A stretch of 64,000 nt of DNA from Brevundimonas sp. LM2 (GTDB lineage: Bacteria; Pseudomonadota; Alphaproteobacteria; Caulobacterales; Caulobacteraceae), in the NCBI RefSeq assembly GCF_002002865.1, contig NZ_CP019508.1, positions 1,642,501 through 1,706,500 of the forward strand, written 5' to 3'. Under the pieces are notes generated by a model, which worked only from the letters and a program-made list of their open reading frames with translations, did not search any database and had not been told where the DNA came from. The first letter of the stretch is position 1. Each line of letters starts with the position of its first letter. Shown here piece by piece: positions 42,452 through 64,000 of this stretch. The translations under genes and the position numbers were made by a program.

Positions 42452-42985
42452 ATGGACAGTGCGGCGACCAAGACCAGCGAGGGCGGTCCCGACACCCCTG
42501 CCGCCGCCTATTTGAGGCTCTATGACCGGTTGAGGGCCTGGGCGGCGCGCCGCATCGCCGACCCGGACGCCGCTGAGGACATCGTCCAGGCCGCCTATCT
42601 GAGGCTTGCCGGCCGACCGGGCGGGGCGGATGAGCGGATGATCCAGTCCGAAGCCTTCGTCTATCGCATCGTGGGCAATCTCGCTCGTGACCACAGGCGA
42701 GACGCAGCGCGGCGCGGCTGGGACGGGGACGCCGCCTTGGCGGGTTTTCCCGACGCCACCCCTTCCGCCGAACGGCGGGTAATCGATCAGGCTCGGCTGC
42801 GGCGGGCTCTGGATCTGGCCGCGACCCTCCCACCCCGCTGCAGGGAGGTCTTCGTGCTGCGCAAGATTGAGGGTCTGGACCAAGCGACCATCGCCGAGCG
42901 TCTGGGCATCAGCCGAAACATGGTGGAAAAACACCTGCGTCGGGCCTTGGCCGAAATCTCCGCGGGTCTCGACGCCGTCGACTGA
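42452..42985 (+). CDS. ECF sigma factor, FecI-like (module A)
   Basis: A 177-aa sigma factor. Sigma region 2 is RLRAWAARRIADPDAAEDIVQAAYLRLAG; region 4 is LPPRCREVFVLRKIEGLDQATIAERLGISRNMVEKHLRRAL, the typical FecI wording. GGGAGGG precedes the ATG. It should be held inactive by the next gene, FecR-A, and direct transcription of receptor A once the receptor signals. Confidence 0.92.
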   Translation: MDSAATKTSEGGPDTPAAAYLRLYDRLRAWAARRIADPDAAEDIVQAAYLRLAGRPGGADERMIQSEAFVYRIVGNLARDHRRDAARRGWDGDAALAGFPDATPSAERRVIDQARLRRALDLAATLPPRCREVFVLRKIEGLDQATIAERLGISRNMVEKHLRRALAEISAGLDAVD

Positions 42986-43031: not shown

Positions 43032-44066
43032 ATGAACTCAGAGGCGCCGCTGCTGGACCGCCCCGAACTTGTTAGACCTGTCCTGATGCCGTCGCGTCCC
43101 CACCCGCTGTCCGCCACCGCTCGCCGCGCCCGCCAAGCGCGCCGCTGGCGTGTGCGCCTGGACCGGGGCGACCTGCGCCCAGCCGAACGTCAGCGCCTGC
43201 AGGCCTGGTTAGCGGACGACGCCAACGCCCGCGCCTACCAGGCTGTCGACGCTTTATGGTTGGATCTCGATGCAGCCCCGGCTCTCGGTCCCCAAGCGGC
43301 GGCCCTGCGCCGCTGGTCGCCTCGCGCCGCGGCCCTGTCGGCGCGTGGCCGCCCCCGCGCGCTCGCCGCTGGCCTCGTCGCCGCCACGGTCGCGGCCGTG
43401 GCCTTCGGCCCAGGCCTGGGCCGGGCGCTTCAGACAGACGCCCGGGCTGGCGTCGGCGAACAGCGCACGGTCACCCTGGACGACGGCAGCCGGCTAGTGC
43501 TCGACACCGGGGCTGCCGTCGACGTCGTCTACGCCGGCGACCGCCGCGCGGTCCGTCTGCTGTCGGGACGTGCCCTGTTCACCGTCGCCCCCGATCCGTC
43601 CCGGCCCTTCGTGGTCAGCGCCAGCGGCGGGACCGTGACCGCTCTGGGCACCGTCTTCGTCGTCCAGACCCGGCCCTTAGCCGACGGCGGCGGCGCGCGG
43701 GTCACAGGCGTCGATCACCGCATCCGCGCCGTCGCAGGCGGATCGACCCGCGACCTCGGCCCCGGCCAGACAGTGGCCTGGACCTGGGGCAGGGCGGTCT
43801 CTGCGGTCGCGGCCGCGACCGATCCCAATGCCGCCGGCTGGACCGACGGGTCTTTGGAGTTCGAGGGGGAACCCTTGGCCGCCATCGCCGCAGAACTCGA
43901 CCCCTATGCTCGCGAGCGGTTGATGGTCCTCGGCTCGGCGCGCGAGCTGAAAGTCAGCGGGGTCTTCCGAACCCGGGATCCGCTGGGCGGTTTGATGGCG
44001 CTGGACAGAAAGCGCGGCCTGCGGGTCCACCGCCTTCCGGGCCTGGTGGTCGTCCGCGCCGACTGA
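43032..44066 (+). CDS. FecR-family anti-sigma/signal transducer (module A)
   Basis: A 344-aa inner-membrane protein; I take MNSEAPLLD at 43032 as the start, although MPSRPHPLS at 43086 is possible. Cytoplasmic sigma-binding part: RRARQARRWRVRLDRGDLRP, LQAWLADDANARAYQAVDAL. Membrane helix about 115-135. The periplasmic FecR domain runs from TVTLDDGSRLVLDTGAAVDV, and the C-terminal STN-like part is SLEFEGEPLAAIAAELDPYA. It relays the receptor signal to sigma factor A. Confidence 0.9.
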   Translation: MNSEAPLLDRPELVRPVLMPSRPHPLSATARRARQARRWRVRLDRGDLRPAERQRLQAWLADDANARAYQAVDALWLDLDAAPALGPQAAALRRWSPRAAALSARGRPRALAAGLVAATVAAVAFGPGLGRALQTDARAGVGEQRTVTLDDGSRLVLDTGAAVDVVYAGDRRAVRLLSGRALFTVAPDPSRPFVVSASGGTVTALGTVFVVQTRPLADGGGARVTGVDHRIRAVAGGSTRDLGPGQTVAWTWGRAVSAVAAATDPNAAGWTDGSLEFEGEPLAAIAAELDPYARERLMVLGSARELKVSGVFRTRDPLGGLMALDRKRGLRVHRLPGLVVVRAD

Positions 44067-44212: not shown

Positions 44213-47014
44213 ATGATCACCACAGCTTCGCCGCGCGCTTGGCGTGTCGCCGCTCTGGCCTGCGCCAGCAGCTTGGCCCTGCTCGCCGCGGGGGCCGCCG
44301 CGCCCGCGATGGCGCAGGCCACGACCGCGCAGGCTCGTGCCTATGCCATCCCTGCCGGACCCTTGGCCCCGGCGTTGAACCGGTTCGCGAATGAGAGCGG
44401 CCTGGCGCTGGTGTATCCGGCCGAGCTGGCGAACGGGAAGACGTCACCGGGTGTGTCGGGCTCGGTTTCGCCGGAGACGGCTCTGGGCCGGCTGCTAGCG
44501 GGGACGGGGCTGACCTTTCGGTTCAGCGATGCACGGACGGTGGTGATCGAGGCGGTCGTCACCGGGGGCGTGGACGACGAGAGGGTGTTGGGACCGGTGC
44601 GGGTAGAGGGGGCGACGGGCGCGGGCTTATCCGGCGCAACCGTGGTCAACGGAACGAACGGTAGCCGGGATACGACGGCGACCGAGGGGACGCAGAGCTA
44701 TACGTCCAACGCACTCACTGTGGGATCCAAAATTCCGACAACCATCAGAGACTTGCCTCAATCCGTAAGCGTGCTCACCGCGCAGCTGCTGGAAGATCAA
44801 AGGATCGTTGACTTCACCGGGGCGTTGGACCGAGCGCCCGGAGTTACGCTTGTTCGGGGAGATACAAGTCTGGAGAACACTTTCTACTCCAGAGGATTTG
44901 CGATTACCTCTATTCAGATCGACGGTGGCGCGCCCCTTATCACAGGAATAGGCGCGAACGCCAACTCGACGGGCTTTTTCCCTCAGATTGACCTCTCGCA
45001 GTACGACCATGTGGAGCTGTTGCGCGGCGCCGCTGGCGCATTGAACGGCTATGGAAATCCCTCAGGCACAGTCAATCTCGTCCGCAAGAAGCCGCTTCAA
45101 AATTATCAGGCTGTGCTGGAGGCCCAGGTTGGCTCGTGGAGCAACTATCGCACGGTTTTGGACGTCACGGGTCCGCTTGCATTCAATGGAGATCTGCGTG
45201 GGCGTTTGGTGACGACCTATCAGGATAACGAATACTTTTATGACATTGCATCAGACAACAAAACATTGATTTACGGAATTCTAGAATATGATTTAACGTC
45301 AAGAACTCTATTAACGTGGGGCGCTAGCTTTACGCGTCAAGATAGCGTCCCTTGGTATCGGGGCCTTCCACGCTTTCAAAACGGAGACGATCTCGCTTTG
45401 CCACGAGAAACTTGTCTTTGCTTTGCCTGGAACCGGTGGGATTTTGATACGACCGAACTGTTTGCATCCCTAGAGCACCAACTGACAGAGAATTGGTCTA
45501 TAAAAGGATCAGTTACTAATAACAGGCAGTCAAGCCGGCAGAAAGTAGGATATAATTCTCAGCCAGTGAACCCTATAAATCTTACCGGTCCTGTGCTCGC
45601 CGGTCAGATGCGGGATTATGATTCCGATCAACTCGCAGCGGAGATTATCGTTAGTGGTAAGTTTACTGTGCTTGGTCAGGTGCAAGAAATCACCGTGGGG
45701 GCAAATCGATCCATTGCTGATGGAAGTGGACGGGTCGATTATGGCACCTTGGTAGGTAACACCGCATCTGGTCCATACATTCCTTATCCTGGCGGACCTA
45801 GCGGTGTCCCTGGCATCAATGTTTTTGACTTTGATCCCTACGATCCGTTATACACTGAGCCGCGTGGCGCTTTACCTACGACGCGCTACAGGGATTTTGG
45901 TCAAGAGCAAACGGGTGTATATCTAAATCTGCGGCTAACGGCTCTAGATCGGTTCCATCTCGTCACGGCCCTTCGATACAGCAGCTTTGAGTTGAACGGC
46001 AAGTTTGACACACTATGCACTAGCCTAGCACAGACTGGCTGCACTGGCCGCCAAGTTGGAGAGCCCGCGGGGCCACCCGCAGTCAATCCGACAGTTCAAG
46101 AGTATGATAGTGAGGATGTCTCCTGGCCACCGTCAGTCTCGCTACTCTACGACATTAATGATCAACTCACGGCGTACGTCGGTTATACGGATGTCTACAT
46201 CAGCCAAGGAAATCAACTCGATCGCAATCTGGACGCCGTCGATCCCATTACAGGCTCGAACCTCGAGGTTGGCTTAAAGTGGTTGAGAGAAGATGGAAGG
46301 TTGAATGCGACCATCGCTGCCTACAAGATCGAACAAAATGGCTTTGCCGTATTTGACGTCTCAGCGCAGTTGGTTGAGAACGGTGTCACTTATTACGTCG
46401 ATAACGACGGAAACAGGTACCAGAATGGTCTACTGCCTGGCGGGCAGTTGCGTTGCTGTTTCATTGGCGATCCAGGCAGGACATTTTTCAGTCAAGGGGT
46501 AGATTTTGAACTGGGAGGTCAGATTTTTCCTGACCTCGAATTATCGCTTTCATACACGTACAATGAAAACGAGCAACGTGGCAGTTCGTTCGGTACAAAT
46601 CCACAGACGGGCGCTGGAACGCCATTTGTAAGCCGTCAGCCAGAGCATACCCTGAAAGCGTGGGCGGCTTGGTCTCCAAGAGGACAGTTGGATCGGTTCA
46701 CTTTTGGCGGAGGCGTTGTCGCACAATCTAGTGCCTACAACTCTGGTACGGCGTGTGTGAGATTTTCCGTGAACTTTCTTGGCGTGCTCAGCTGTGACTT
46801 TGCGGCTGGCGGGTTTGTTCCGTATCGATACACACAGAGCGGTCGAGCCATTTGGAGCGGCCGAGTTGAGTATGACCTCGACGACAGATGGTCGTTTGCC
46901 GTGAACGTGAATAACCTAACCGACGAGACATATTACCAGACTACAGGAGCTGGGACTGGAAACTGGTATGGCGAGCCGCGCTCATTTACACTTTCGCTTC
47001 GCGCAAAATGGTGA
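44213..47014 (+). CDS. TonB-dependent receptor with STN signalling domain (module A), mosaic gene
   Basis: A 933-aa outer-membrane receptor of the FhuE/FoxA style. A signal peptide ends at APAMA. The STN domain (about 45-110: ARAYAIPAGPLAPALNRFAN, then TGLTFRFSDARTVVIEAV) and the linker ERVLGPVRVEG follow. The plug is about 145-290 (TIRDLPQSVSVLTAQLLEDQ; YSRGFAITSIQIDGGAP), and the 22-strand barrel runs to FTLSLRAKW at the C terminus. The DNA is GC-rich up to about 44715 and then clearly AT-richer to the stop. The likely ligand is a ferric siderophore, by family only. Confidence 0.92.
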   Translation: MITTASPRAWRVAALACASSLALLAAGAAAPAMAQATTAQARAYAIPAGPLAPALNRFANESGLALVYPAELANGKTSPGVSGSVSPETALGRLLAGTGLTFRFSDARTVVIEAVVTGGVDDERVLGPVRVEGATGAGLSGATVVNGTNGSRDTTATEGTQSYTSNALTVGSKIPTTIRDLPQSVSVLTAQLLEDQRIVDFTGALDRAPGVTLVRGDTSLENTFYSRGFAITSIQIDGGAPLITGIGANANSTGFFPQIDLSQYDHVELLRGAAGALNGYGNPSGTVNLVRKKPLQNYQAVLEAQVGSWSNYRTVLDVTGPLAFNGDLRGRLVTTYQDNEYFYDIASDNKTLIYGILEYDLTSRTLLTWGASFTRQDSVPWYRGLPRFQNGDDLALPRETCLCFAWNRWDFDTTELFASLEHQLTENWSIKGSVTNNRQSSRQKVGYNSQPVNPINLTGPVLAGQMRDYDSDQLAAEIIVSGKFTVLGQVQEITVGANRSIADGSGRVDYGTLVGNTASGPYIPYPGGPSGVPGINVFDFDPYDPLYTEPRGALPTTRYRDFGQEQTGVYLNLRLTALDRFHLVTALRYSSFELNGKFDTLCTSLAQTGCTGRQVGEPAGPPAVNPTVQEYDSEDVSWPPSVSLLYDINDQLTAYVGYTDVYISQGNQLDRNLDAVDPITGSNLEVGLKWLREDGRLNATIAAYKIEQNGFAVFDVSAQLVENGVTYYVDNDGNRYQNGLLPGGQLRCCFIGDPGRTFFSQGVDFELGGQIFPDLELSLSYTYNENEQRGSSFGTNPQTGAGTPFVSRQPEHTLKAWAAWSPRGQLDRFTFGGGVVAQSSAYNSGTACVRFSVNFLGVLSCDFAAGGFVPYRYTQSGRAIWSGRVEYDLDDRWSFAVNVNNLTDETYYQTTGAGTGNWYGEPRSFTLSLRAKW

Positions 47015-47281: not shown

Positions 47282-48250
47282 CTACAGCCGAACCAGCCGT
47301 CTTAACCGCACGAACGCCCCGCCGCGAACGCGAAGCACATCGCGTTTTTGGCCTTCGGCCGCGCCAACGCTGGTCTGGTGGTCGTCATGGCGCAGGGCGA
47401 GCTGCGTCAGCGCCTGGCGCAGGTCTCGCGCTTGATCGGTGCTGACATCGTCGAGATAAACATAGGCTCCCCGCCCGCCGCGCCCGCCTTTTACGGGTCC
47501 CCAGGGCGCGGCGCGCACCGCCTCAAGGGCCCATTTATCCTCCGCCGAGCCCCCAACCCGCTGGGGATCTGACAGGATCGGGCTTTGCGCGCCTTCCGGA
47601 TAGAGCGGGGTCCCGGCTGCATCCGCATACGGCCGCACAATCGGGTCGGACAGATCGGCGATCATCCGGTCCATGACATCGACCAGCAGGCGCTCGCCGT
47701 CGGGCAGGACGACCTCATTCCAGGCGTGGGCCGAGCGCCGCCCAGGTCGGCCGGGCTCGGGATCGGGAACGCGATGCAGGCCGCGCACGAGGGCGCAGGG
47801 CAGACCGACCGCGTCCGCCAGCACTTTGAACAGCAGCGACCGGTGCCGGCACACGCCCGTGCGGGCGGTAATCAACTGGCCCAGGTCGATCTCCGCCCCG
47901 GCCAGGCCTTGCTGCCCAGCGATCTCGATGAGCAGGGCGTGGTTCTTGTTGATGCTGTTCTCGGCCAGGGCGGCGTCGACGAGCGTGGCCAGCGTATCGA
48001 CCTGATCCAGATCCGGCGCCCCGGGCCCGACCGCCCGCCTCGCCTCGGTGATCACCCGCGCCAGGGCGACGTCCTCTTCGGGGGCGCGCGCGACCAGAAT
48101 CTCGCGGTTCGGCCGGCTCAGGGCTTGTCCGTCTGCGTCCAAAGCGAGCTTCCGTCCGCCGTCTCGAAAGCCCCAGGCGAGGGGCTCGGTCTCGGGAATG
48201 CGGTGGGTCTGGGCGTACAGAAGGGTTTGTCGCAGGGCGTCGGGCGTCAT
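47282..48250 (-). CDS. Transglutaminase-like (cysteine protease fold) protein
   Basis: The start MTPDALRQTLLYAQTHRIPE at 48250 is supported by a homologous start in the remnant at 53504-53584. The 322-aa protein has a transglutaminase-type triad: Cys134 (TGVCRHRSLLF), His175 (SAHAWNEVVL) and Asp191 (RLLVDVMD), with LLIEIAGQQGLAGAEIDLGQ in front. The CRHRSLLFKVLADAVGLP wording resembles the EDR1/CTR1-type transglutaminase-like domain. It is convergent with receptor A. No substrate known; proteolysis or crosslinking of a module partner is possible. Confidence 0.8.
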   Translation of the reverse strand: MTPDALRQTLLYAQTHRIPETEPLAWGFRDGGRKLALDADGQALSRPNREILVARAPEEDVALARVITEARRAVGPGAPDLDQVDTLATLVDAALAENSINKNHALLIEIAGQQGLAGAEIDLGQLITARTGVCRHRSLLFKVLADAVGLPCALVRGLHRVPDPEPGRPGRRSAHAWNEVVLPDGERLLVDVMDRMIADLSDPIVRPYADAAGTPLYPEGAQSPILSDPQRVGGSAEDKWALEAVRAAPWGPVKGGRGGRGAYVYLDDVSTDQARDLRQALTQLALRHDDHQTSVGAAEGQKRDVLRVRGGAFVRLRRLVRL

Positions 48251-48410
48251 CTCACCATCGGTCGAAAAGTCCGCGTGTTTGGTCTGAACGATTGGCCGAC
48301 GACCAAACCGCACCACAAAGCCGCGCGGTGCTCCGATAGGGACTTTCGCCCCTTCGAACGTCGAAACTCCACGGCAGTCGTGCTAGACCGCCAGGGCAGG
48401 GGGCTGGCGC

Positions 48411-49001
48411 ATGGCGGCGCGACCGGAGATCGTCGAGCTGGACGCCGTCCGCCGCGCGCGGGCGGATCCGAATCCAGCCCCTATCCCAACCACGCCCTCC
48501 GCCCTCACCACCGTATACCTCCGCCGGCGCGATGCCCTGGCCGCCTTCATCCGCCGCCGCACCGGCTGTGACCAGGCGGCCCAGGACCTGACCCAGGAGG
48601 TCTGGGTCCGGGTCGCCGCCCTCGGCGACCAGGCCGCCCCTGTGAATCCGGAAGCCTTTCTCCAGCGCATCGCCGGCAATCTGGCGCTGGACTGGCTCCG
48701 TCGCCGCCGCTTCCGCTCGGCCTTCGTCGCCTCGGACGTAGATCCGGCCCTGGCCGCCGATCCGGCTCCTGAGGCGGATCGGGCGCTCCACGCCCGCCGC
48801 GCGGTCGACTATCTTGCCGAGGTGATCGACGAGCTTCCCCCCAAGCGGCGACAGGCCTTTCTGCTCTATCGCGGCCACGGAATGACGATGAAGCAGGTGG
48901 CGGCGCAGCTGGGCATTTCCGAAAAGACCGTCGAGCACCAGGTGGCCAAGGCCCTCGTCCATTGCCGTCACCGCCTGGCCGAGGCGGGGCTTTGGCCGTG
49001 A
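48411..49001 (+). CDS. ECF sigma factor, FecI-like (module B)
   Basis: A 196-aa sigma factor. Region 2 (YLRRRDALAAFIRRRTGCDQ, AQDLTQEVWVRVAAL) and region 4 (ELPPKRRQAFLLYRGHGMTM, KQVAAQLGISEKTVEHQVAK) match FecI-type factors. The first 30 residues are a Pro/Arg-rich extension. Its stop overlaps a GTG start of FecR-B (GTGA). Distinct in sequence from sigma factor A. Confidence 0.92.
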   Translation: MAARPEIVELDAVRRARADPNPAPIPTTPSALTTVYLRRRDALAAFIRRRTGCDQAAQDLTQEVWVRVAALGDQAAPVNPEAFLQRIAGNLALDWLRRRRFRSAFVASDVDPALAADPAPEADRALHARRAVDYLAEVIDELPPKRRQAFLLYRGHGMTMKQVAAQLGISEKTVEHQVAKALVHCRHRLAEAGLWP

Positions 49002-50107
49002 GCGGATCCGACGACGGAGACATCGGTCTCGGCGATGGGGATTTTTGGCCCGCCGAGCGTCATAGAGATGTCACGAAAGCGTCAGCCCGAGCCATGCCCG
49101 ACCCCGCCCCCGTTCTCCAATCCACACCGGACGCCGGGCACGATCCCACGCCGGACCACTATGAGGCGGCCGTCGCTTGGCTCGTGCGCCTGCGCGAGCC
49201 CGACACCCCGGCGCTGACCGCCGCCTTCCAGGCCTGGTTGGCCGCGGACCCCGCCCATGCCTTCGCATTCGCGGAGATGGAGGCCCTGTTCGACGCCGTC
49301 GCCACTCCGACCCGCGCCGCCGCCGAGCGCGACCGGCGGGCCCAGGGCCGTTCCGCCTTCCGCCCCCACTACCCCCGATCCTGGGCGCGGCCCCTCCTGC
49401 GCCGTCCGCTGGCCGTGGCCGCCGGCCTCGCCGCCGCCGTTCTCCTGGTCACGGGCCAGAGCGATCGTCTGGCGACAATCGGCGCCGAGGGCGTCACCGC
49501 TCCCGGCGAAATCGAGACCCTGACCCTGGCTGACGGCTCGCGCGTCACCCTCAATACCCGCAGCATCATCCAGGCCGAGGTCGACCGCGCGGGCCGCGCC
49601 GTCCGGCTGGAGCGGGGCGAGGCCTTTTTCGACATCGCGTCGGATCCGGCGCGGCCCTTCTATGTCCACGCAGGCGACGCCCGGATCCGCGTGGTCGGCA
49701 CCCGCTTCAACGTTCGCCGCGACCGCGACCGGGTCGTGGTTACCGTCGACCACGGCGTCGTCGCCGTGGCGCCGACGTCGAATCTGGACAACCCCGCGAC
49801 CGTCGTCGTCGGCCGTCAGGCCGTCGTCCAGGATCAGGCCGTCACGGCGGAGCCGGCCCCGCTGGACGGGCAGGCGACCGCCTGGCGCCGCGGCCAGCTG
49901 GTCTTCAACCAGACCCCGCTCCGCGAAGTGGTGGCCGAGCTCAACCGCTACCGCGCCGGCCGCATCCTGGTCCTGAACGCTGATCTTGCCGACCAGACCG
50001 TGTCCGGGGCCTTCAACACCGCCAACGTGGATGGAGCCGTGCGCGGCATCGAACGCACATTGGGCACCCGCGCTGCCCGCCTGCCGGGCGTCACGGTGAT
50101 TTATTGA
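48998..50107 (+). CDS. FecR-family anti-sigma/signal transducer (module B)
   Basis: I chose the GTG at 48998 because it overlaps the sigma stop by 4 bases; an ATG at 49094 (MPDPAPVLQSTPDAGHDPTP) is the alternative. The sigma-binding part is AVAWLVRLREPDTPALTAAF, FQAWLAADPAHAFAFAEMEA. The membrane helix is PLAVAAGLAAAVLLVTG. The FecR domain is LTLADGSRVTLNTRSIIQAE, and the C-terminal STN-like part is LVFNQTPLREVVAELNRYRA. It should control sigma factor B. Confidence 0.92.
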   Translation: MSGSDDGDIGLGDGDFWPAERHRDVTKASARAMPDPAPVLQSTPDAGHDPTPDHYEAAVAWLVRLREPDTPALTAAFQAWLAADPAHAFAFAEMEALFDAVATPTRAAAERDRRAQGRSAFRPHYPRSWARPLLRRPLAVAAGLAAAVLLVTGQSDRLATIGAEGVTAPGEIETLTLADGSRVTLNTRSIIQAEVDRAGRAVRLERGEAFFDIASDPARPFYVHAGDARIRVVGTRFNVRRDRDRVVVTVDHGVVAVAPTSNLDNPATVVVGRQAVVQDQAVTAEPAPLDGQATAWRRGQLVFNQTPLREVVAELNRYRAGRILVLNADLADQTVSGAFNTANVDGAVRGIERTLGTRAARLPGVTVIY

Positions 50108-50194: not shown

Positions 50195-53101
50195 ATGATT
50201 TCGTTCCGCTCCAGCACCGGGCGTGCAGCCCTTTTGGCCTTCACCGCCCTGACCGGCCTGGCCGCCCTGCCGAGTCAGGCGGCGGCCCAGAGCCCGGCCA
50301 CCGCTCCCGCGCCCGACCGGGTCTATGACTTCGACATCCCCGCCCAATCGCTGGCGCGTTCGGTCAGCGCCGTCTCCGCCCTTACCGGACTCCAAGTCCT
50401 CTACACCGACATGGGTCCGCAAGGGGTCCAGGCACCGGCCGTCAGGGGACGGCTGACTGCGGACCAAGCCCTGGCTCGCCTGACGGCCGGTACTGGGTTT
50501 CGCTATCGCTACACAGGCCAGGGGGTCGTGACGCTTGAGCCGATCGTTACGGGCAGTGTCGACGGGGAGCGGGTGCTAGGGCCGGTGCGAGTGGAGGGCG
50601 CGCAGAGCGACGGATCGTTCGGTCGGGCCGGTCAGGCGGCCGGGGTCAACGGCGTCAACGGGTCGCGCGATATCACGGCGACCGAGGGCACCGGCAGCTT
50701 CACTTCCGGGGCGCTGACGATCGGGTCGAAAGCACCACGTAGCATTCAGGACACGCCGCAATCGGTGAGTGTGATCACGAGCGAACGTCTGGAGCAGCAG
50801 AATATCAACGATTTCACACAAGCGCTCCAACAGGCACCCGGCGTAACAGTTGTTCAAGGGCAGAATAGTATCGAAGAATTATTCTATTCACGTGGATTCG
50901 AGATAACATCTATTCAGGTTGACGGTGGTGCGCCATTATCCACAAGTTTTGCTGGATCCTCTAGAACGGCATACTTCCCCGAGATAGATTTAGCGCAGTA
51001 CGATCATATTGAAATTCTCCGGGGCGCGGCGGGCCTCTTTAATGGATATGGTGATCCCTCTGGCACAGTGAACCTTGTCCGTAAAAAACCGCTCGATCAC
51101 GCCCAAGTTTTGGTCGATGGCAGTGTAGGAAGCTGGGAAGACTATAGAACAGTTCTCGATGTCACTGGTCCTCTAGGCATGGACGGAAAACTAGCTGGTC
51201 GGTTGGTACTGACTTACCAGGATAACGGCTACTTTTACGACACAGCTGAAAACACTCGTAGTCTGATATACGGAATCGTCAGTTACGATTTGAATCCTTC
51301 CACTGTGTTAACAGTGGGTCTGAGTCATACACGTCAAGACAGCGTACCATGGTCGTCGGGCCTTCCTCGTTATCAAGACGGCTCCGATCTCATGCTTCCC
51401 CGAAACAGATCGCTGCTGGCACCGTGGAGCCGTTGGAACTTCGAGACGTCAGAGACATTTGCAACCGTGGAGCAACGAATCGGCGAGAGCTGGACGGTGA
51501 AGGTGAATTTCACCAATCAGGTTCAGGAAAGCATCCAAAAACTCGGATTTGGCTCCGGTACAGTTAACCCGCTCACGAACACCGGTTCAGTACTCACCGT
51601 TGCGGCTAACGATTTCTCAAGCAGTCAGTTTTCTGGGGAATTGTCGATCACAGGTGCGTTCAATATACTTGGACAGAGACAGGAGATGGCATTCGGGATA
51701 AATGGAGTCCTATCTGATGGCGGCGGTACGAGACAATATTCTCCATCTGAGATCGTAAGGGGTACGCCTGCTTTGCCATACCGACCATTTCCAGGTGGTC
51801 CGGCGTATTGTTCTGGTACGGTTATAGCGTGCCCCAATGGGTCCTCACCACAGATTGATGTATTTAATTTCAATCCGCAGAATCCTATCTACTCTGAGCC
51901 TAGCGATTCGCTACCCAGTTTTCTGTGGCGTGAACGGGGACAGGAACAACTTGGTGCCTACCTCAATCTTGATTTGACGGCGCTTCAAAGAATTCATCTA
52001 GCAGTTGGCTTTCGCTATAGTTATTATAAGCAAAACTCTATTCGAGATCGCCTTTGCGTGAATATACCTACGTCTGGGGTACCGACGGCAGAGAACTGCG
52101 TTGGTCGCGAGATTGGAGATGCTTACGCTCCTGAGTTCGCCAATTACGACGATACGGATTTTACCTGGCCGCCAGCGTTTTCACTGAGCTATGATCTCAG
52201 TGACGACGTCAGGTTGTATGCAGATTATACCGACATCTATGTCAGCCAAGCGAACAACGTTGATGGCGATCGAAAGCCTGTCCATCCAATAACTGGCTCC
52301 AATTTGGAGGCGGGTGCGAAATGGTCGTTACGTGACGGGAAACTTAACGCCTCTGTGGCTGTCTATCGTATTGATCAACAGAATTTTGCAATCCGTCCGG
52401 ACAATGTCATCGTACGAAATGCGGACGGGTCAACGTTCTTTGACCCGGAGAATGAGTTTGCGTTCTACGTGTTAGACAACGCGGGCAATCGTATTGCGAA
52501 TGGAGAGATAGACCCCGAGACCCGATGCTGTTACGTAACTGATTTTGATGTATCAAGGATAAGTAAAGGTATCGATGTTGAGATAACCGGTGAAGTAATA
52601 GACGGTCTCAATATTGCAGCAAGCTATACGTACAATGATAACGAGTATAAGGGGGACGATCTTGCATTGGCCTTCTTCCCAGCCCAGGGTACGTCGTTGA
52701 TCACACGGCAGCCAAATCAACTCTTCAAATTATGGGCCTCGTACAATTTTGCAAGTGCGGCGCTTACGAATGACAGTTGGCTCAACCGAATTAATATCGG
52801 TGGTGGAGTTAGTTGGTTGTCCGAAGCGTTCGTTGCGGGCACGGCCTGCACGCAGTTAGGCACACCGAACGCACTTGGTTCGTCATCGTGTCTCGTGGTA
52901 ACGCCTTATAGTTACACTCAGCCGTCTTATGCCGTTTGGTCTTTGCAGTCGGAGTACACTATCGATGACAACTGGCGACTTCAGCTCAACATCGACAATT
53001 TAACAGATACACGGTATTATAGCACTATGGGCACGTCGGCAGGGGGCAACTGGTACGGCGAACCCGCAAACTTCTCACTCTCGCTTCGTGGCAAGTTTTG
53101 A
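50195..53101 (+). CDS. TonB-dependent receptor with STN signalling domain (module B), mosaic gene
   Basis: A 968-aa receptor. Signal peptide to about residue 31 (PSQAAAQ); STN domain about 40-110 (VYDFDIPAQSLARSVSAVSA, TGFRYRYTGQGVVTLEPI); linker ERVLGPVRVEGA; plug (SIQDTPQSVSVITSERLEQQ; YSRGFEITSIQVDGGAPLS); barrel to FSLSLRGKF. The plug and barrel resemble receptor A closely, while the loops differ, so ligands may differ. The DNA is GC-rich up to about 50770, then AT-richer to the end. Confidence 0.93.
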   Translation: MISFRSSTGRAALLAFTALTGLAALPSQAAAQSPATAPAPDRVYDFDIPAQSLARSVSAVSALTGLQVLYTDMGPQGVQAPAVRGRLTADQALARLTAGTGFRYRYTGQGVVTLEPIVTGSVDGERVLGPVRVEGAQSDGSFGRAGQAAGVNGVNGSRDITATEGTGSFTSGALTIGSKAPRSIQDTPQSVSVITSERLEQQNINDFTQALQQAPGVTVVQGQNSIEELFYSRGFEITSIQVDGGAPLSTSFAGSSRTAYFPEIDLAQYDHIEILRGAAGLFNGYGDPSGTVNLVRKKPLDHAQVLVDGSVGSWEDYRTVLDVTGPLGMDGKLAGRLVLTYQDNGYFYDTAENTRSLIYGIVSYDLNPSTVLTVGLSHTRQDSVPWSSGLPRYQDGSDLMLPRNRSLLAPWSRWNFETSETFATVEQRIGESWTVKVNFTNQVQESIQKLGFGSGTVNPLTNTGSVLTVAANDFSSSQFSGELSITGAFNILGQRQEMAFGINGVLSDGGGTRQYSPSEIVRGTPALPYRPFPGGPAYCSGTVIACPNGSSPQIDVFNFNPQNPIYSEPSDSLPSFLWRERGQEQLGAYLNLDLTALQRIHLAVGFRYSYYKQNSIRDRLCVNIPTSGVPTAENCVGREIGDAYAPEFANYDDTDFTWPPAFSLSYDLSDDVRLYADYTDIYVSQANNVDGDRKPVHPITGSNLEAGAKWSLRDGKLNASVAVYRIDQQNFAIRPDNVIVRNADGSTFFDPENEFAFYVLDNAGNRIANGEIDPETRCCYVTDFDVSRISKGIDVEITGEVIDGLNIAASYTYNDNEYKGDDLALAFFPAQGTSLITRQPNQLFKLWASYNFASAALTNDSWLNRINIGGGVSWLSEAFVAGTACTQLGTPNALGSSSCLVVTPYSYTQPSYAVWSLQSEYTIDDNWRLQLNIDNLTDTRYYSTMGTSAGGNWYGEPANFSLSLRGKF

Positions 53102-53965: not shown

Positions 53966-56623
53966 ATGGCCGACGCCAAAACCATCCGCATTGACCCCAA
54001 GGACTATCGGCTCGACGGCCGGCTGGCCAAACGGATCTGGCGGCTGAGCAAACCCTATTGGACCGATCCCAGGCATTGGAAGTCCTGGGTGCTGATGGTC
54101 TTCACCATCGCTGTCGGCCCGGCCTGGGCCTATGTCGGCTACTGGACGGCGCAAAAAAACGCCGATCAAGTCAACGCACTGGTGGCCACCGACCAGTCTG
54201 TCTTCTTGAGCCTGTTCTGGCTCCTGTTCTGGCTGGGCGTCGGTCAGTGGGTCTATCAGCAACTGCTGAGCCTGCTGACCCAACTCATGACCATGCAGTG
54301 GTTCCGCTGGATGACCGAATGGATGGTCAACCGTTATCTGGAGCACAAGACCTACTACGACATCACCCTGAATGAGGACATCGACAACCCCGACGAGCGG
54401 ATTGAATCGAACGTCAAACCGTTCATCGATTCCATGCTCTCGGTCCCCGGGCGCATCCTCGGCAGCGTGCTGGGCGTCGCCACGAATGCGGTGCTGCTGA
54501 CCCAGGTCAGCTCGGCCATGACCGGCTTCGTTGTGATCTATTCGATGATCACCATGGGCATCCAAGTGCTCATCTACATTCCCCTCATCCGGATGAATTT
54601 CGAACAGGTCGCCGCCAACGCCGACCTCCGCTACGGCCTCTTGCGCGTGCGTGACCACGCCGAGACCATCGCCTTCTTCCGGGGGGAACGGACCGAGAGC
54701 CGACAGGTCGTCAGCCGCCTTTGGCGACTGGTCAACATCCAGATGAAGATCTTCTATTACACGCTCTGGACCGGCGGCCTTAGCCAGGCCCTTTCCTATG
54801 TCTGGGCGCTGGCTCCCCTGTTCCTGGTCTATCCCCTCTATTTCTCTGGCCAGATCGCCTATGGCACCATCACCTTGGCCACGGCCGCCGCCTCCAACTT
54901 GATGGGGGCGCTGACACAGCTCAATCAATATTTGCCCTTCATTGCCAATCTCGCACCCGTCACGGTGCGCCTGGCCCAGCTGGTCGAGCGTTGGGACATG
55001 TTGGCCGAGCGCAACAAGGGCAACACGCCCGGGCTCATCACCTTGCGTGAAGGCCGTGAAGGGCTGCGACTCGAAGGCGTCACCTTCACCACCCCAGGCG
55101 GCCAGTCGCCGCTGGTCAAGGATCTGACCTTCGACATGGGGGCGGGCCGCTCCCTGATCGTCATTGGCCAGACCGGGGTCGGCAAGAGCTCGCTCCTGCG
55201 AGTCATGGCCGGCCTGTGGCGCCAGGGGTCAGGAACCATCATCCTGCCACCCGAGGCCGACACCATGTTCGTGCCGCAGCGCCCCTATATGATGCTCGGC
55301 GACCTGCGCGCCCAGCTCCTCTATCCCCACGGTGATCCCAAACTCAGCGACGCCGAGCTTCAGGCCGTGCTGGAACAGGTGCGTCTGCCGGACCTGATCC
55401 AGAAATGCGGCGGACTGGACGCCGAGCGCGACTGGATCAAGGTCCTGTCCCTGGGCGAGCAGCAGCGGATATCCTTCGCCCGGGTGCTGATTTCAAAACC
55501 AAGCTTCGTGGTCCTCGACGAGGCCACAAGCGCGTTGGACATCCCCACCGAGGCGGCGGTCTATCAGGCGCTCGGGGACAGCGGCTGCGCCTATGTCAGT
55601 GTCGGCCACCGCGAGACCATCCTGCGCTTCCACGAACGCGCCTTGCGGCTCATGCCCCAGGGGGCTTGGGAGCTGGTCGATCCCCAATCGCTGCCCCTGA
55701 CCGAGATCGCCCCCCTGGCGTCGGCGCGCCCGGCACGGCCGGACGCGGTCGAGGCGCCTGTTGCGCTGACCGCAGGCCGTGCCCCCGCCACCGACCTCGC
55801 CCTCGCAGAAAGACAACCTCTCGTGACCGATCTCGACACCACCGCGCCCCTTACTGTCTCCCGCTTCGCCGCCGACCTGGCCGGCCGTCGCCTCGACGTC
55901 GCCGCCGCCCAAATCCAGGGCGAGCGCGACGATCAGGAGGATTCGGTGCTGATCCAGCCCCTGCCGGGCGATGCCCTGCTTATCGCCGTGTCCGACGGCA
56001 TGGGCGGACATCCCGATGGGGAGGTGGCCTCCGCCCTCGGCCTCGCCACCCTGCGCCAGGCCGTCCTGGCCCTCTCGGATCAGGTCTCGACCGCCGCGGG
56101 CTGGTCGGCCGCGCTTCACGCCGCCGTGATTCAGGCCACCACCGCCGTCCGCCTGCTGGGCGACGCCTCGGGCCTGGGCATGAAGGCGGCGAAAGAAGAC
56201 CCAGGACCCAAGACCCCCGGGGCGACCCTTGCGGCCGTCATCCTCGTGCCGAGCCAAGACGTCTGGGTCTATGCCGCCGCTGGCGACAGCTGGATCTATA
56301 AGCTCAACGGCCAGCGCGGCGGCAAACGCATCAACACGCTCCACACCGGGGCCCGCAAACACACCATCACCAGCTTCCTGGGCCTGAAGACACCCCAGGT
56401 GGAAGGCACCGACCTGGTCCTGCCGCTCAAGGGCGTCACGGGCCTGGTCCTGGCCACGGACGGGGTGGATGTTCTGACCCTGCGCGACGTCGAAGCCGCC
56501 GTCCGCGCAGCGTCTGACGCCCCGGACGCGGCTGCCGACATCCTCGCCCGCGTCACCGCCAAGGCCCATCCCAAACAGGACAACGCCTCCGTCATCGTCG
56601 TGCGACTGTCCGCCTCCGCATAG
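53966..56623 (+). CDS. SbmA/YddA-type ABC transporter fused to a PP2C-family protein phosphatase
   Basis: An 885-aa fusion. Residues about 25-330 form the membrane domain (KSWVLMVFTIAVGPAWAYVG; FWLLFWLGVGQWVYQQLLSL; YFSGQIAYGTITLATAAASN), like the ABC_membrane_2 proteins that move peptides. The ATPase has Walker A GQTGVGKSS (401-409), signature LSLGEQQ (494-500) and Walker B VVLDEATSALD (Asp518, Glu519). After a linker (about 575-640), a PP2C domain follows with ERDDQED (653-659), SDGMGGH (676-682), PGATLAAVI, AAGDSWIY, TDGVD (Asp832) and KQDNAS (Asp872), all the metal-binding positions. The start at 53966 gives the best N terminus. Expected: a transporter that removes phosphate from an unknown Ser/Thr phosphoprotein on the cytoplasmic side. 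Confidence 0.92.
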   Translation: MADAKTIRIDPKDYRLDGRLAKRIWRLSKPYWTDPRHWKSWVLMVFTIAVGPAWAYVGYWTAQKNADQVNALVATDQSVFLSLFWLLFWLGVGQWVYQQLLSLLTQLMTMQWFRWMTEWMVNRYLEHKTYYDITLNEDIDNPDERIESNVKPFIDSMLSVPGRILGSVLGVATNAVLLTQVSSAMTGFVVIYSMITMGIQVLIYIPLIRMNFEQVAANADLRYGLLRVRDHAETIAFFRGERTESRQVVSRLWRLVNIQMKIFYYTLWTGGLSQALSYVWALAPLFLVYPLYFSGQIAYGTITLATAAASNLMGALTQLNQYLPFIANLAPVTVRLAQLVERWDMLAERNKGNTPGLITLREGREGLRLEGVTFTTPGGQSPLVKDLTFDMGAGRSLIVIGQTGVGKSSLLRVMAGLWRQGSGTIILPPEADTMFVPQRPYMMLGDLRAQLLYPHGDPKLSDAELQAVLEQVRLPDLIQKCGGLDAERDWIKVLSLGEQQRISFARVLISKPSFVVLDEATSALDIPTEAAVYQALGDSGCAYVSVGHRETILRFHERALRLMPQGAWELVDPQSLPLTEIAPLASARPARPDAVEAPVALTAGRAPATDLALAERQPLVTDLDTTAPLTVSRFAADLAGRRLDVAAAQIQGERDDQEDSVLIQPLPGDALLIAVSDGMGGHPDGEVASALGLATLRQAVLALSDQVSTAAGWSAALHAAVIQATTAVRLLGDASGLGMKAAKEDPGPKTPGATLAAVILVPSQDVWVYAAAGDSWIYKLNGQRGGKRINTLHTGARKHTITSFLGLKTPQVEGTDLVLPLKGVTGLVLATDGVDVLTLRDVEAAVRAASDAPDAAADILARVTAKAHPKQDNASVIVVRLSASA

Positions 56624-56751: not shown

Positions 56752-57357
56752 CTAATAGTTCCGACGGAACTGCTCCGGCCTGATGCGGAAGGCGGGCCGA
56801 TCCTCACGCGCGGCCTGGTCGGCCGCCCGCCATTGGGCAATCCCGGCGTCGGTGTCTCCAGCAGAGACCACCGCCATGGCCACCACCGCCATTGCGCTCG
56901 AGGCGGTCCGCTTCAGCCCGTTGAAATACACCTTGTCTGGCCCCTCAGCCGCGCCCTCCAGCGCCTTGGCTTGGGTCCGGCAGGTGGTCAGCGCGGCCTG
57001 CGTCGCCGCCGCCTGCGTTGCCACGTCGGGGGCCAGAGCATCGCGAAGCGCCTGCTTGCAGGCCGTAACCGTCGCCTGCCCCTCAGCCGGAGCCGGAAGG
57101 CCGTCCAGGGTGCCAAGTCCGGTCTCGACGGCGGATTTCGTGCGTCCGCCGTAATACCCGAGGTAGGAAGCCTTCTGGGACCCCTCGCTCTGCATCCAGT
57201 TCCCGAACCCGGTGTCTCCGGTCAAGGCCACGAACGGATCGCCCGAGCGCTGCTTTTCTTGCTCTTTGTAAGCCGTCTCGAAATTGGGATTGGGAGCCGC
57301 ATCGCACCCCGCCAATCCGGCCAGGGCAAGGGTCAGGGTGAACAGCGGCGTGCGCAT
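56752..57357 (-). CDS. Hypothetical lipoprotein
   Basis: A 201-aa protein with signal peptide and lipobox (TLTLALAGLAGC). The mature part (FETAYKEQEKQRSGDPFVAL, TGDTGFGNWMQSEGSQKASY) and a helical middle with two Cys (TVTACKQALRDALAP; AALTTCRTQAKAL) are unrecognised. Convergent with the ABC-PP2C gene and divergent from the NUDIX gene. Confidence 0.7.
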   Translation of the reverse strand: MRTPLFTLTLALAGLAGCDAAPNPNFETAYKEQEKQRSGDPFVALTGDTGFGNWMQSEGSQKASYLGYYGGRTKSAVETGLGTLDGLPAPAEGQATVTACKQALRDALAPDVATQAAATQAALTTCRTQAKALEGAAEGPDKVYFNGLKRTASSAMAVVAMAVVSAGDTDAGIAQWRAADQAAREDRPAFRIRPEQFRRNY

Positions 57358-59780: not shown

Positions 59781-60281
59781 ATGAGCGAGCCGGCGACCCG
59801 GGCGCAGTGGGACGAGCTCTATGGCTGGCTCGTGCGCCAGACCGGGGATCCGTCGCTGGCGAGCGACCTTGCTCAGGACGCCTATGCCCGGCTCGCCGCC
59901 GTGTCTGATGACATCGTCGTGCTCGACCGCCGCGCCTGGCTGTTCGGCGTCGCCCGCAATCTGCTGGTCGACCACTGGCGCGTCCGGGGCCGGACTCCCG
60001 CCACCGTCCCGGCCGACACGGCCCTTGTCGATCACGCCGACCCCCAGCCGGACCCTCTGGCCCGGCTGCTCTCGGCCGAAGAGCTGACGGTGTTGAACCG
60101 CGCCATTGCCGCCCTGCCGCCGCGCATGGGCGAGGTCTTTCGCCTGCACAAGGTCGAACACTTGAGCTACGAAGCCATTGCGCTTCGCCTCGGCATGGCG
60201 AAGAACACGGTCATGGTTCACATGGTCCAGGCGCTCGGGCGCTGTCGCGCGGCCTTGATCGCCCACCGGGAGAGCCGCTGA
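59781..60281 (+). CDS. ECF sigma factor, FecI-like (module C)
   Basis: A 166-aa sigma factor: region 2 (LYGWLVRQTGDPSLASDLAQ, DAYARLAAVSDDIV, RAWLFGVARNLLVDHWRVRG) and region 4 (LPPRMGEVFRLHKVEHLSYE, AIALRLGMAKNTVMVHMVQA). The FRLHKVE wording departs from the usual FVLRKLE. Followed within 5 bases by FecR-C. Distinct from sigma factors A and B, so each module has its own regulator. Confidence 0.92.
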   Translation: MSEPATRAQWDELYGWLVRQTGDPSLASDLAQDAYARLAAVSDDIVVLDRRAWLFGVARNLLVDHWRVRGRTPATVPADTALVDHADPQPDPLARLLSAEELTVLNRAIAALPPRMGEVFRLHKVEHLSYEAIALRLGMAKNTVMVHMVQALGRCRAALIAHRESR

Positions 60282-60285
60282 GACC

Positions 60286-61377
60286 GTGACATCTTCCGCG
60301 TCCCGCCTAATGGTCGCGCCTCCGTCCATCGTCTTCCCTCCCATGACCGTTCCCCTCGACCCCGATCTGCGTCTCAACGACCCAGCCGATCCCGTTGCGG
60401 TTGAAGCCACGACGTGGTTCGTCCGTCTCCGCGATCAGGGCGCAGGGCCCTCGGATCGCGCCGCCTTCGACGCCTGGCTGCAGGCGGACAGCGCCCACGG
60501 TACCGCCTATGCGGACGTCGAAGCGCTCTGGGCCGGGCTCGACGGGGCCACGTTTCCCGTCGCGGTGTCGGAACCGGGTGCCGGGGGTGGGCTTGAGAGC
60601 CTGCGCCGCCGGACGCTCCTGTCCCGCCGCGCCATGGCGGCCGCTGCCGCCCTTGTTCTCACGGTCGGCGTGTCGCTGCCGAGCCTTGCCACCCATCTGG
60701 CCACCGACGCCCAGACCGGCGTCGGCCAGAGCCGCAGCCTCACCCTCGCCGACGGGTCGCTGGCGGTGCTCGACGCCGATAGCGCCATCGCCGTGGACAT
60801 CGCCGCCGACCGGCGCGACGTGCGTCTGCTGCGGGGGAGGGTCTGGGTCCAGGCCGCCCATGAGGCGCGGCCGTTCCGCGTCCACGTCGGCCCCGCCGCC
60901 GTCCGCGACATCGGCACGGCCTTCGAAGTGTCGCGCTACGGCGACGCCGGGACGGTGGCGGTCACCGAAGGGTCGGTCGAGCTCACCCTCGCCGACGGCC
61001 CGGCCCTGCCGCTCGTCGCCGGCCAGGCCGCCCGTTTCGATCGCGGGGGCGCGGTCTTTGCGGGCTCCGCCGCCGGGACCCGGCCCGCCTGGGTGCCGGA
61101 CCCGACCGACGGTCAGGGCGCGAGCCCCGCCCGCCTCCGCTTCGTCGACGCCCCCCTGTCGGAGGTGCTCGCCGATCTGCAGCGCCACGGTGCCGGCCGC
61201 ATTCTGGTGACCGACGCCGCACTCAAACGTCGTCGCATCACCGGCACCGTGGATCCCGCCCAGCCCCGCGTGGCGCTCAATGCCGTCCTCGCCCGCGTCG
61301 ACGCCCGCGTCGATCGCGTCGGGCCCTTCGTCGTGGTGCGGCCGAAGTCGCGGCGCGGGTCCGACGAAGACAGATAG
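60286..61377 (+). CDS. FecR-family anti-sigma/signal transducer (module C)
   Basis: The GTG at 60286 has GGGAGAG upstream; ATG codons at 60310 and 60343 (MTVPLDPDLRLNDPADPVAV) are alternatives. N-terminal sigma-binding part: ATTWFVRLRDQGAGPSDRAA, FDAWLQADSAHGTAYADVEA. Membrane helix: RAMAAAAALVLTVGVSLPSL. The periplasmic FecR domain is LTLADGSLAVLDADSAIAVD, and the C-terminal STN-like part is RLRFVDAPLSEVLADLQRHG. It should link receptor C to sigma factor C. Confidence 0.92.
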   Translation: MTSSASRLMVAPPSIVFPPMTVPLDPDLRLNDPADPVAVEATTWFVRLRDQGAGPSDRAAFDAWLQADSAHGTAYADVEALWAGLDGATFPVAVSEPGAGGGLESLRRRTLLSRRAMAAAAALVLTVGVSLPSLATHLATDAQTGVGQSRSLTLADGSLAVLDADSAIAVDIAADRRDVRLLRGRVWVQAAHEARPFRVHVGPAAVRDIGTAFEVSRYGDAGTVAVTEGSVELTLADGPALPLVAGQAARFDRGGAVFAGSAAGTRPAWVPDPTDGQGASPARLRFVDAPLSEVLADLQRHGAGRILVTDAALKRRRITGTVDPAQPRVALNAVLARVDARVDRVGPFVVVRPKSRRGSDEDR

Positions 61378-61792: not shown

Positions 61793-64000
61793 ATGACCAC
61801 TTTCAAAAAGCGGCTCTGCCTGGCCGGCGTCGCTCTCGCGGCCCTCTCCATAGGCTTGGAGGCCCAGGCTCGCAGCGTGACCGTGATTCAGGATCAGGCG
61901 CGGCGCGACTTCAATGTCCCGGCCGGGCCGTTGTCCCAGACGGCCCTGACCCTGTCCGACCAGGCCGGCGTGCAACTGGTGTTCGACGCCGGAGCATCGT
62001 CGGGGGTGCGCGGTGGGGCCGTTCGCGGATCGCTCACCGTGGACCAAGCCATGGACCAGCTCTTGGCGGGGACGGGCCTGTCGTGGCGCTATCTGCGGGA
62101 AGGGGTCGTGACGATCGAGGCGGCGGTACAGGCGGGATCGGTGAACGGCGAGCGGGTGTTGGGGCCGGTCCGCGTTGAGGGGCTGACGGGAACGTCTAGG
62201 CAAGGACGCACCTCCGGACCGGTGGCCTTCGCGGAGACTGATTCAGGCATCACAGAAGACCGCGACACCTACGCCGCGCCCAGGGCCTCGATCGGGGTAA
62301 AGTCCGAGCGCGATCGCACGGACATCCCGCAGACGGTCAGCGTCATTACCCGGGCCGAGCTGGATGATCGCCGCGTCGACAGCTTGGACGAAGCGCTGCA
62401 ACAAGCGCCTGGGCTGACTACGCGAGACCTGGGGCGAAACACCTTGGCCTTCACATCGCGCGCTTTTGTCGTCGATGCGGTGTCCATCGATGGCGGCGCG
62501 GCCCTACCGCGAACGCAGGGTGGGTCGGTGTTCTCTCCCGATTTGTCGGCGTTCGACAGAGTCGAGCTTATCCGGGGTCCCGATGGGCTTTTCCGCGGCT
62601 TCGGGTCTCCGGGCGGTACGATAAACCTGGTGCGGAAGCTGGCCACGAGAGACCCTCGATCAACAGCCGTTTTTTCGGCTGAGCGTTACGGGGGCTATCG
62701 TGCTGAAATCGATATCTCGCGACCCCTGAGAACGGAAAGCTTCCTGGGCTTGCGAACCGTCGCCTTTGTAGATCGCGAGGGCTTCTTCAACTCGCCGGGG
62801 AGCTACGACACATCCGGCGTCTTCGCGACTGCGACGTACGAACCGCTTCCGTCGGTTAGGTTTACGGGCGGCGCTAGCTTCTCGGCGTCAACAACCGAAC
62901 AACCGCCCTTGCTCGTCTCCCGTTTTGAAGACGGTACCGAGCTCCCCTTTCCTCGCGATGAAAACTTCGCCTCGGACTGGTCAAGCGCCGAGCAAGATAG
63001 TTTGGAATTTTTCGCCAATGCGAGCTTCCGCCACAGCCGTGCCTTCAATGTTGAAGCGCGGCTCAGTCGTCGGGAAGTTGATAAAGGTCTTTCAAAAAAC
63101 TCCTTGTTATTCGGTCCCGTTAACCCAATTACCGGCGAATATCAGTTCTATGGATCAACCTTCTCTCCTCCAGAACAACAAACGCAGAATCTTATCGATC
63201 TATTTGTAAGCGGATTGTTGGGTTCTACATGGCAGATTGAGTATACAGTCGGAGGGAACTATTCGAGGTCGTACTACGATCGATCTCCGATTTATTATGA
63301 CTCCGACGCAATATATTTCCCCGGCGGTCCGCTGCCAGCAGATCTCAACTTCCGCAGATTTGACCCCAATGATATCCCCGAGCCGCAGGAGCAGGGCCCC
63401 TTATTCATCGATGTTCCGCTCGATGAGGTTCGACAGACCGGTCTATACGGCTATGCTCGGGTGGCGTCCCCTTTCGGTCTTAAGGTTTCTCTCGGCGGCC
63501 GTGTAAGCGATTATCGGACCGTAAGGCGAGATCGTCAGTTCGGTCGTGACGGCACGCTTCTAAGCGATCGCCTCTCAAACGTCCGAAGAACAGACTCAGT
63601 TTTCACGCCCTACGCAGCGTTGCAATGGGATCTCAGCGAGACCTTGTCGTCCTATCTTTCCTACACCGATATCTTCACCGACCAATCCACCTTGTTCGAT
63701 CGGTCGGGAAACCCCTTGCCACCTGTCGAGGGCGACAATTTCGAGACGGGACTGAAAGGAAACTTGACGCCAAGCCTTACTTGGAGCGCGGCTCTATACA
63801 GGATCAACTTGGAGAATCAGGCTAGCTTCTTGCCTCCGCCTCGGAACTGTCGGCCGACTGGAACAAGTTCCTGTGCAGAAGCCGAGCGGTCCAGCCTTAG
63901 CCAGGGTATCGATATCGAGTTGTCGGGAGCCTTGACCGAAGCTTGGGAAATCTCGCTGTCTTACGTTTACAATGAGAACCGGCGCGACGGTGGTTTTACC
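61793..64000 (+). CDS. TonB-dependent receptor with STN signalling domain (module C), cut by window edge
   Basis: Open from ATG 61793 to the edge (736 codons so far). Signal peptide MTTFKKRLCLAGVALAALSI ending near LEAQA; STN domain about 38-110 (RRDFNVPAGPLSQTALTLSD, SLTVDQAMDQLLAGTGLSWR); linker ERVLGPVRVEG; plug (IPQTVSVITRAELDDRRVDS; LDEALQQAPGLTTRDLGRNT; VSIDGGAAL); then barrel strands. It is more distant from receptors A and B than they are from each other. The DNA becomes AT-richer towards the barrel, more gradually than in A and B. The C terminus lies outside the window. Confidence 0.9.
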   Translation, partial: MTTFKKRLCLAGVALAALSIGLEAQARSVTVIQDQARRDFNVPAGPLSQTALTLSDQAGVQLVFDAGASSGVRGGAVRGSLTVDQAMDQLLAGTGLSWRYLREGVVTIEAAVQAGSVNGERVLGPVRVEGLTGTSRQGRTSGPVAFAETDSGITEDRDTYAAPRASIGVKSERDRTDIPQTVSVITRAELDDRRVDSLDEALQQAPGLTTRDLGRNTLAFTSRAFVVDAVSIDGGAALPRTQGGSVFSPDLSAFDRVELIRGPDGLFRGFGSPGGTINLVRKLATRDPRSTAVFSAERYGGYRAEIDISRPLRTESFLGLRTVAFVDREGFFNSPGSYDTSGVFATATYEPLPSVRFTGGASFSASTTEQPPLLVSRFEDGTELPFPRDENFASDWSSAEQDSLEFFANASFRHSRAFNVEARLSRREVDKGLSKNSLLFGPVNPITGEYQFYGSTFSPPEQQTQNLIDLFVSGLLGSTWQIEYTVGGNYSRSYYDRSPIYYDSDAIYFPGGPLPADLNFRRFDPNDIPEPQEQGPLFIDVPLDEVRQTGLYGYARVASPFGLKVSLGGRVSDYRTVRRDRQFGRDGTLLSDRLSNVRRTDSVFTPYAALQWDLSETLSSYLSYTDIFTDQSTLFDRSGNPLPPVEGDNFETGLKGNLTPSLTWSAALYRINLENQASFLPPPRNCRPTGTSSCAEAERSSLSQGIDIELSGALTEAWEISLSYVYNENRRDGGFT

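Follow-up and report, generated by a model that had tools for sequence, protein, structure and literature searches.

Why would a bacterial ABC transporter carry a protein phosphatase in the same polypeptide? The question is raised by an 885-residue open frame without internal stop in a 64,000-nucleotide stretch of DNA from Brevundimonas sp. LM2 (the whole stretch is called the window here), which combines an ABCD/SbmA-like ABC transporter with a PP2C phosphatase. The original prediction, made from the letters of the sequence, was of one frame joining these two parts, and the Pfam domains, the codon bias and the length of the frame uphold it: in a search with the full protein, ABC_membrane_2, ABC_tran and PP2C_2 all scored above their curated cut-offs, the last at residues 655-842 (E 1e-10; 41.6 bits, cut-off 24). 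Read against what we take to be the accepted definitions of the motifs, the ABC part is complete, with Walker A at exactly the predicted residues 401-409, a Q-loop (437-442), the predicted signature (LSLGEQQR, 494-501) and Walker B (514-522), and an H-loop (544-550). All expected PP2C motifs are likewise in place (ERDDQEDS 653-660, VSDGMGGH 675-682, AAGDSW 771-776, LATDGVD 829-835 and KQDNAS 870-875), including the five metal-binding motifs that had been called intact. Among solved structures searched with phmmer, ABCD-family transporters were closest (9wfg, E 8e-87; 6tqe, E 4e-72), and the best stretches on ABC structures stop at residue 605 of the fusion or before, short of the PP2C. By sequence, the ABCD transporters (9wfg, ABCD1, ABCD4) and 6tqe, presumably mycobacterial Rv1819c, share the TMD-NBD family of the fusion, and from this family it follows that the ATPase and the PP2C domain would both face the cytosol. 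A role in anti-phage defence was dismissed, the PADLOC matches of the fusion being confined to the ATPase region.

Because a fused frame can also arise if an assembly indel or a lost stop codon merges two genes, and because the fusion is absent from every relative examined, we scored coding potential in 40-codon steps in six frames after training on the other genes of the window. The frame of the fusion outscores both other plus-strand frames at every step; one antisense frame lies slightly above it at two steps, residues 360 and 380, inside the ABC part. The score is lowest in the linker, at about residue 600 (-0.3), yet even there it is the highest of all six. With the codon bias of the linker thus favouring the frame of the fusion among all six, nothing points to a merged frameshift, and this, together with the unbroken frame, leads us to reject a frame-merging error. 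The source genome (G000) is, moreover, a single contig of 3.56 Mb and 99.94% complete. An in-frame GTG at residue 620 has no obvious ribosome site. Relatives of the transporter bear on a lost stop codon. The nearest, 58% identical over residues 1-589, comes from a genome of the same class and another family (G777) and ends at 600 residues, and among 102 related ABC frames, taken as the best loci of each search, one reaches more than 120 residues beyond the ATPase match, namely the fusion itself; the remaining matches were judged from their alignments, none of which passes query residue 647, that of G000 apart. The original prediction had considered that homologues might encode the two domains as separate genes; no adjacent PP2C gene was found, a PP2C profile (E up to 0.05) having no match in 101 stretches with ABC relatives or their neighbourhoods. 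The relatives examined therefore lend a missed stop no support, and we regard a merger of two genes as highly improbable.

The surroundings of the fusion were mapped by gene calling and family searches over 40-64 kb of the window and about 51 kb beyond it. They form what is apparently an acquired TonB-dependent import island, which runs from position 42452 to the end of the window at 64000 and on to G000:C1:1746896 (Table 1 lists the features in the window). It holds five large TonB receptors, each of them with an STN domain, and six ECF/FecR pairs. Also encoded are ExbB-ExbD-TonB, an EDR1-type papain-like peptidase, a lipoprotein-like protein and a set of conjugation proteins. Two of the sigma factors and three of the FecR regulators were identified by Pfam and the others by similarity; the TonB was identified by eye from its resemblance to the TonB of G777. 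The receptor gene preceding the fusion ends 864 bases upstream of it, so that a TonB receptor and the ABC transporter are encoded together, and the one receptor scanned of the five (44213..47014) scores 228.6 bits with the NCBIfam model TIGR01783, cut-off 223.5. The EDR1-type peptidase has the Cys, His and Asp of what we assume to be the expected triad. Against five STN receptors and six ECF/FecR pairs stands a single ABC importer of this kind among the called genes; many receptors may feed one inner-membrane transporter. No convincing promoter motif common to the receptors and the fusion was found in their upstream regions. Two genes after the fusion and on the same strand lies a gene for a 252-residue protein with hydrophobic stretches (58016-58774), for which Pfam, NCBIfam and PADLOC gave no match. 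The two halves of the island are separated by a conjugation block (L083:12357 to L084:15697; G000:C1 about 1712356-1735596) encoding a T4SS coupling protein, TrbE/VirB4-, TrbL-, VirB8- and TrbI-type proteins, an ArdC-like protein and a DUF3363 protein; this block might be an integrative element that either bears the island or has divided it.

Table 1 The fused gene and the island genes around it, in window coordinates.
Feature	Position	Strand	Basis or remark
ECF sigma factor	42452..42985	+	family search
FecR regulator	43152..44066	+	family search
TonB-dependent receptor with STN domain	44213..47014	+	above TIGR01783 siderophore-receptor cut-off
EDR1/CTR1/ARMC3 papain-like peptidase/transglutaminase	47282..48316	-	without signal peptide by eye
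ECF sigma factor	48411..49001	+	Pfam
FecR regulator	48992..50107	+	Pfam
TonB-dependent receptor with STN domain	50195..53101	+	47-49% identical to three other island receptors
Fused ABC transporter-PP2C phosphatase	53966..56623	+	885 aa; ORF translation, Pfam, codon bias, motifs
Transmembrane domain, Pfam ABC_membrane_2 (aa 37-292)	54074..54841	+	E 4e-39; 135 bits, cut-off 24.4
Nucleotide-binding domain, Pfam ABC_tran (aa 384-522)	55115..55531	+	E 6e-17; 63.1 bits, cut-off 25
NBD motifs	Walker A 55166-55192; signature 55445-55468; Walker B 55505-55531	+	
Linker (about aa 571-650), Ala/Pro-rich	55676..55915	+	in frame by codon bias
PP2C domain, first to last metal/catalytic motif (aa 653-875)	55922..56590	+	Pfam, profile, motifs
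201-aa lipoprotein-like protein	56752..57357	-	signal ending LAGC; without Pfam match; convergent with fusion
ECF sigma factor	59781..60281	+	similarity to other island and G777 sigma factors
FecR regulator	60343..61377	+	Pfam
TonB-dependent receptor with STN domain	61793..64000	+	crosses window end (L083:4294-6891)

The genome of the source strain contains three PP2C_2 matches: the fusion, a gene beside ExbB and a PP2C-kinase fusion. The ExbB-side gene (G000:C1:1737060-1737869; L084:17161-17970) encodes 269 residues with intact motifs about 38 kb downstream of the fusion; it ends 58 bases upstream of ExbB and heads a run of genes in the order PP2C-ExbB-ExbD-TonB-ECF-FecR. Among the PP2Cs compared, the two of the island match each other best, at about 40-43% identity; the others are 23-36% identical to the pair over partly shorter stretches, and the kinase-linked PP2C is far less similar to the pair than its members are to each other. 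A profile built from the pair matches phosphatases in the PDB (2y09, E 8e-12; 2j82, E 2e-11); the fused PP2C as a single query matched less well, and several of its hits were unrelated designed proteins. Both PP2Cs appear to have come with the island. The open-licence literature, so far as its text is available, yielded no related paper tying a PP2C to ExbB/ExbD/TonB, and we know of no PP2C described in a TonB-energising operon. That no Ser/Thr kinase is seen in the window, as originally stated, agrees with the family searches, which showed none among the island genes tested; the sole match to Pkinase, the one kinase family searched, is a Hanks kinase about 430 kb away that is fused to its own PP2C. 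Because this kinase-PP2C is present in 38 of 99 genus genomes, the source genome included, it seems to be the host's own rather than the island's; and because 37 of the 98 other genomes have it, while the fusion as query found a close PP2C in no other of 131, the kinase seems not to have arrived with the system and appears to predate the island. The original prediction had overlooked the TonB island, the ExbB-side PP2C and this kinase.

To place the transporter, we computed a quick tree of 95 ABC proteins with SH-aLRT supports and without bootstrap. The fusion groups with the ABC protein of G777 (SH-aLRT 99), then with proteins of Pantoea plasmids (95) and then with Klebsiella and Methylobacterium proteins, in a branch of eight (100) drawn from six loci: the fusion, G777, two Pantoea plasmids, one Klebsiella plasmid and Methylobacterium. 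The Pantoea, Klebsiella and Methylobacterium loci (plasmids by annotation) carry a TonB receptor, FecR and ExbB/ExbD, and M16 peptidases are found in the two Pantoea plasmids and the Klebsiella plasmid (annotated), with two more in Methylobacterium (Pfam). The predicted label of an SbmA/YddA-type transporter holds roughly, at the level of the fold family, but E. coli YddA is only 27% identical to the fusion and sits on a long branch of its own apart from the eight; the close relatives come from TonB-import loci. The fused transporter is probably part of a large-nutrient uptake system. The likeness to G777 extends beyond the transporter: its region has a TonB gene, and homologues occur there for the lipoprotein-like protein (E 6e-14 at 31% identity, encoded immediately upstream of the unfused ABC gene), the EDR1 domain (43%), ExbB, ExbD, ECF/FecR and the receptors, which start about 10 kb downstream of its ABC gene. 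A PP2C profile found no match in the stretch with that ABC gene (L082); the sole PP2C_2 match of G777 lies on another contig and shows no BLAST similarity (E 1e-3) to the two PP2Cs of the island, and Pkinase has no match in G777. Because the related loci, as read, are without a PP2C, the phosphatase is not required for transport in general.

Which known system does this arrangement resemble? For Fus, the ferredoxin import system FusA-FusB-FusC-FusD, the available text of PMC5095587 describes a TonB receptor encoded together with an ABC transporter whose TMD and NBD are fused, with a TonB-like protein and with an M16 protease, and the layout of Fus and of the K-12 operon yddA-yddB-pqqL resembles the loci of the fusion's relatives (PMC5095587, same portion). 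As far as its TonB and ABC parts show, the island works like such a protease-associated import system. The accessory enzymes differ: Fus and YddA-YddB-PqqL have an M16 protease, whereas the island has an EDR1-type peptidase and a PP2C on the ABC transporter. Searches by tblastn (E 1e-3) with seven M16 queries (two from Pantoea, two from Klebsiella, PqqL and two from Methylobacterium) found no M16 gene in the window, in L083-L085, in L115 or in the stretches of G777; the five queries from outside Methylobacterium served as a control and recovered the Methylobacterium M16 genes. YddB as query had no BLAST match among the island receptors at E 1e-5. Because these searches found no M16 gene, YddB is unmatched and YddA is distant, we do not class the island as a protease-associated import system. 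Two further systems combine some of the same elements. Mycobacterial Rv1747 with PknF is, in the accessible accounts, an ABC transporter with FHA phospho-signalling domains and a cognate Ser/Thr kinase; it differs from the fusion in its FHA domains and in the kinase that its operon also encodes, and the accessible portion mentions no phosphatase domain. PP2C-kinase fusions are described in the part of PMC1262709 available; as in the fusion, the PP2C lies within a larger protein, but its partner is a kinase and not a transporter.

How widespread is the fusion? With the full-length query, no second fusion was found in 199 family, 385 class and 398 phylum genomes, nor in 149 genomes of the G777 family, 131 of the genus and 161 of the G777 genus (the sets overlap). 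In none of 256 matching plasmid records did any one locus span 80% of the query, a collection of genome contigs gave eight loci with weak matches in the ATPase region, and viral contigs gave no confirmed relative for either of two queries. Within the 131 genus genomes, four besides the source match the fusion at E 1e-20; because these matches are restricted to the ABC part and the best is 34% identical, the fusion and its PP2C look acquired. The PP2C domain alone found one of the 199 family genomes, the source itself, and two weak plasmid records; the profile of both island PP2Cs found, in 270 class genomes, the source and two weak matches (G205, G403). The ExbB-side PP2C, the EDR1 protein and the lipoprotein-like protein had no plasmid match. 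A conserved fusion family is not supported, the fusion being seen in one genome only among the sets searched. In the open-licence literature, outside which most subscription papers lie, no description of this architecture was found, in line with the original prediction, which knew of no such described system. The protein is an ABC transporter associated with TonB import that has a phosphatase built in, and it has come to light so far in one genome.

What, then, would the phosphatase do? We tentatively prefer a local switch in which the phosphatase acts on the importer, with phosphorylated cargo as a close rival. In such a switch, ExbB-ExbD-TonB would energise the receptors, which would bring a substrate over the outer membrane; the ABC dimer would carry that substrate, or something derived from it, through to the cytosol. 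In what is the least certain step, the PP2C would strip Ser/Thr phosphate from the transporter or from nearby machine or regulatory proteins and so switch import locally; the ExbB-side paralogue would act likewise on the energising complex ExbB-ExbD-TonB, and the host's fusion of a Hanks kinase with a PP2C would supply the opposing kinase. In bacteria, PP2Cs are known mainly from pairings with protein kinases, regulation being their usual role, which speaks for a switch and against an enzyme directed at cargo. Regulation also accounts for the link of both PP2Cs to inner-membrane parts of the import machinery. The fused frame with intact motifs, the match of the pair profile to the bacterial PP2C structure 2y09, the place of the ABC part in a branch whose other loci carry TonB receptors and the existence of one Pkinase match in the genome are all consistent with a switch. 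Several observations fit it less well. The island genes tested showed no kinase, and the switch would have to draw on one from the host that is patchily distributed in the genus, carries a PP2C domain of its own and seems not to have come with the system; the related loci lack a PP2C; and the import direction, which we infer only from the TonB context, has to be set against E. coli YddA, which is called an efflux pump in one paper (PMC9728188, available part) and, with its substrate unsettled, an uptake candidate in another (PMC10971958, available part).

An island kinase would be unnecessary if the phosphate belonged to the cargo. The fused PP2C would then dephosphorylate a phosphorylated, peptide-like cargo as it leaves on the cytosolic side, the EDR1-type peptidase would cut it, and the accessory enzymes of such clusters would serve to trim the cargo and would differ according to it. 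We consider this possible. Accessory enzymes do vary by locus (M16; EDR1-rhamnosidase with TldD/PmbA-type peptidases; EDR1 with PP2C), both PP2Cs appear island-borne, and EDR1 is described as close to family C71, which cleaves an isopeptide bond (PMC10318531, as far as its accessible text goes). Such a role requires a phosphorylated cargo, however, and the scanned receptor scores as a siderophore type, a phosphorylated siderophore not being an obvious cargo; the second PP2C, furthermore, adjoins ExbB and not the ABC gene. Somewhat doubtful to us is the fuller picture of an import-and-dephosphorylate machine, in which a TonB system, a phosphatase built in at the ABC exit and an isopeptidase-like enzyme finishing in the cytosol would work together. 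We think it unlikely that the join is recent and of little consequence beyond fixing dosage and membrane location, with the PP2C acting as a soluble phosphatase would: occurrence in one genome, the unfused 58% relative, the long low-complexity linker and the GTG as a possible internal start would suit this, but both halves have intact motifs, the frame is continuous and the sister PP2C is import-linked as well. The fusion implies either control of such import by Ser/Thr phosphorylation or a phosphorylated cargo, and to our knowledge either would be new. By family, a phosphatase-bearing relative is also a direct handle on the Fus/YddA-like inner-membrane step, which for Fus is described as hypothesised in the available portion of PMC6793856.

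Two features of the G777 locus concern its own accessory genes. One frame (L082:3586-7260) encodes two EDR1-type domains and an alpha-L-rhamnosidase, without signal peptide by eye, which suggests that an imported molecule bearing rhamnose is processed in the cytosol; a TldD/PmbA peptidase is encoded nearby, and a second one is 27% similar. Directly after the TonB receptors lie six tandem paralogues of about 500 residues (L118:9559-18983), with a C-terminal AAA ATPase domain in all three of the six that were tested.
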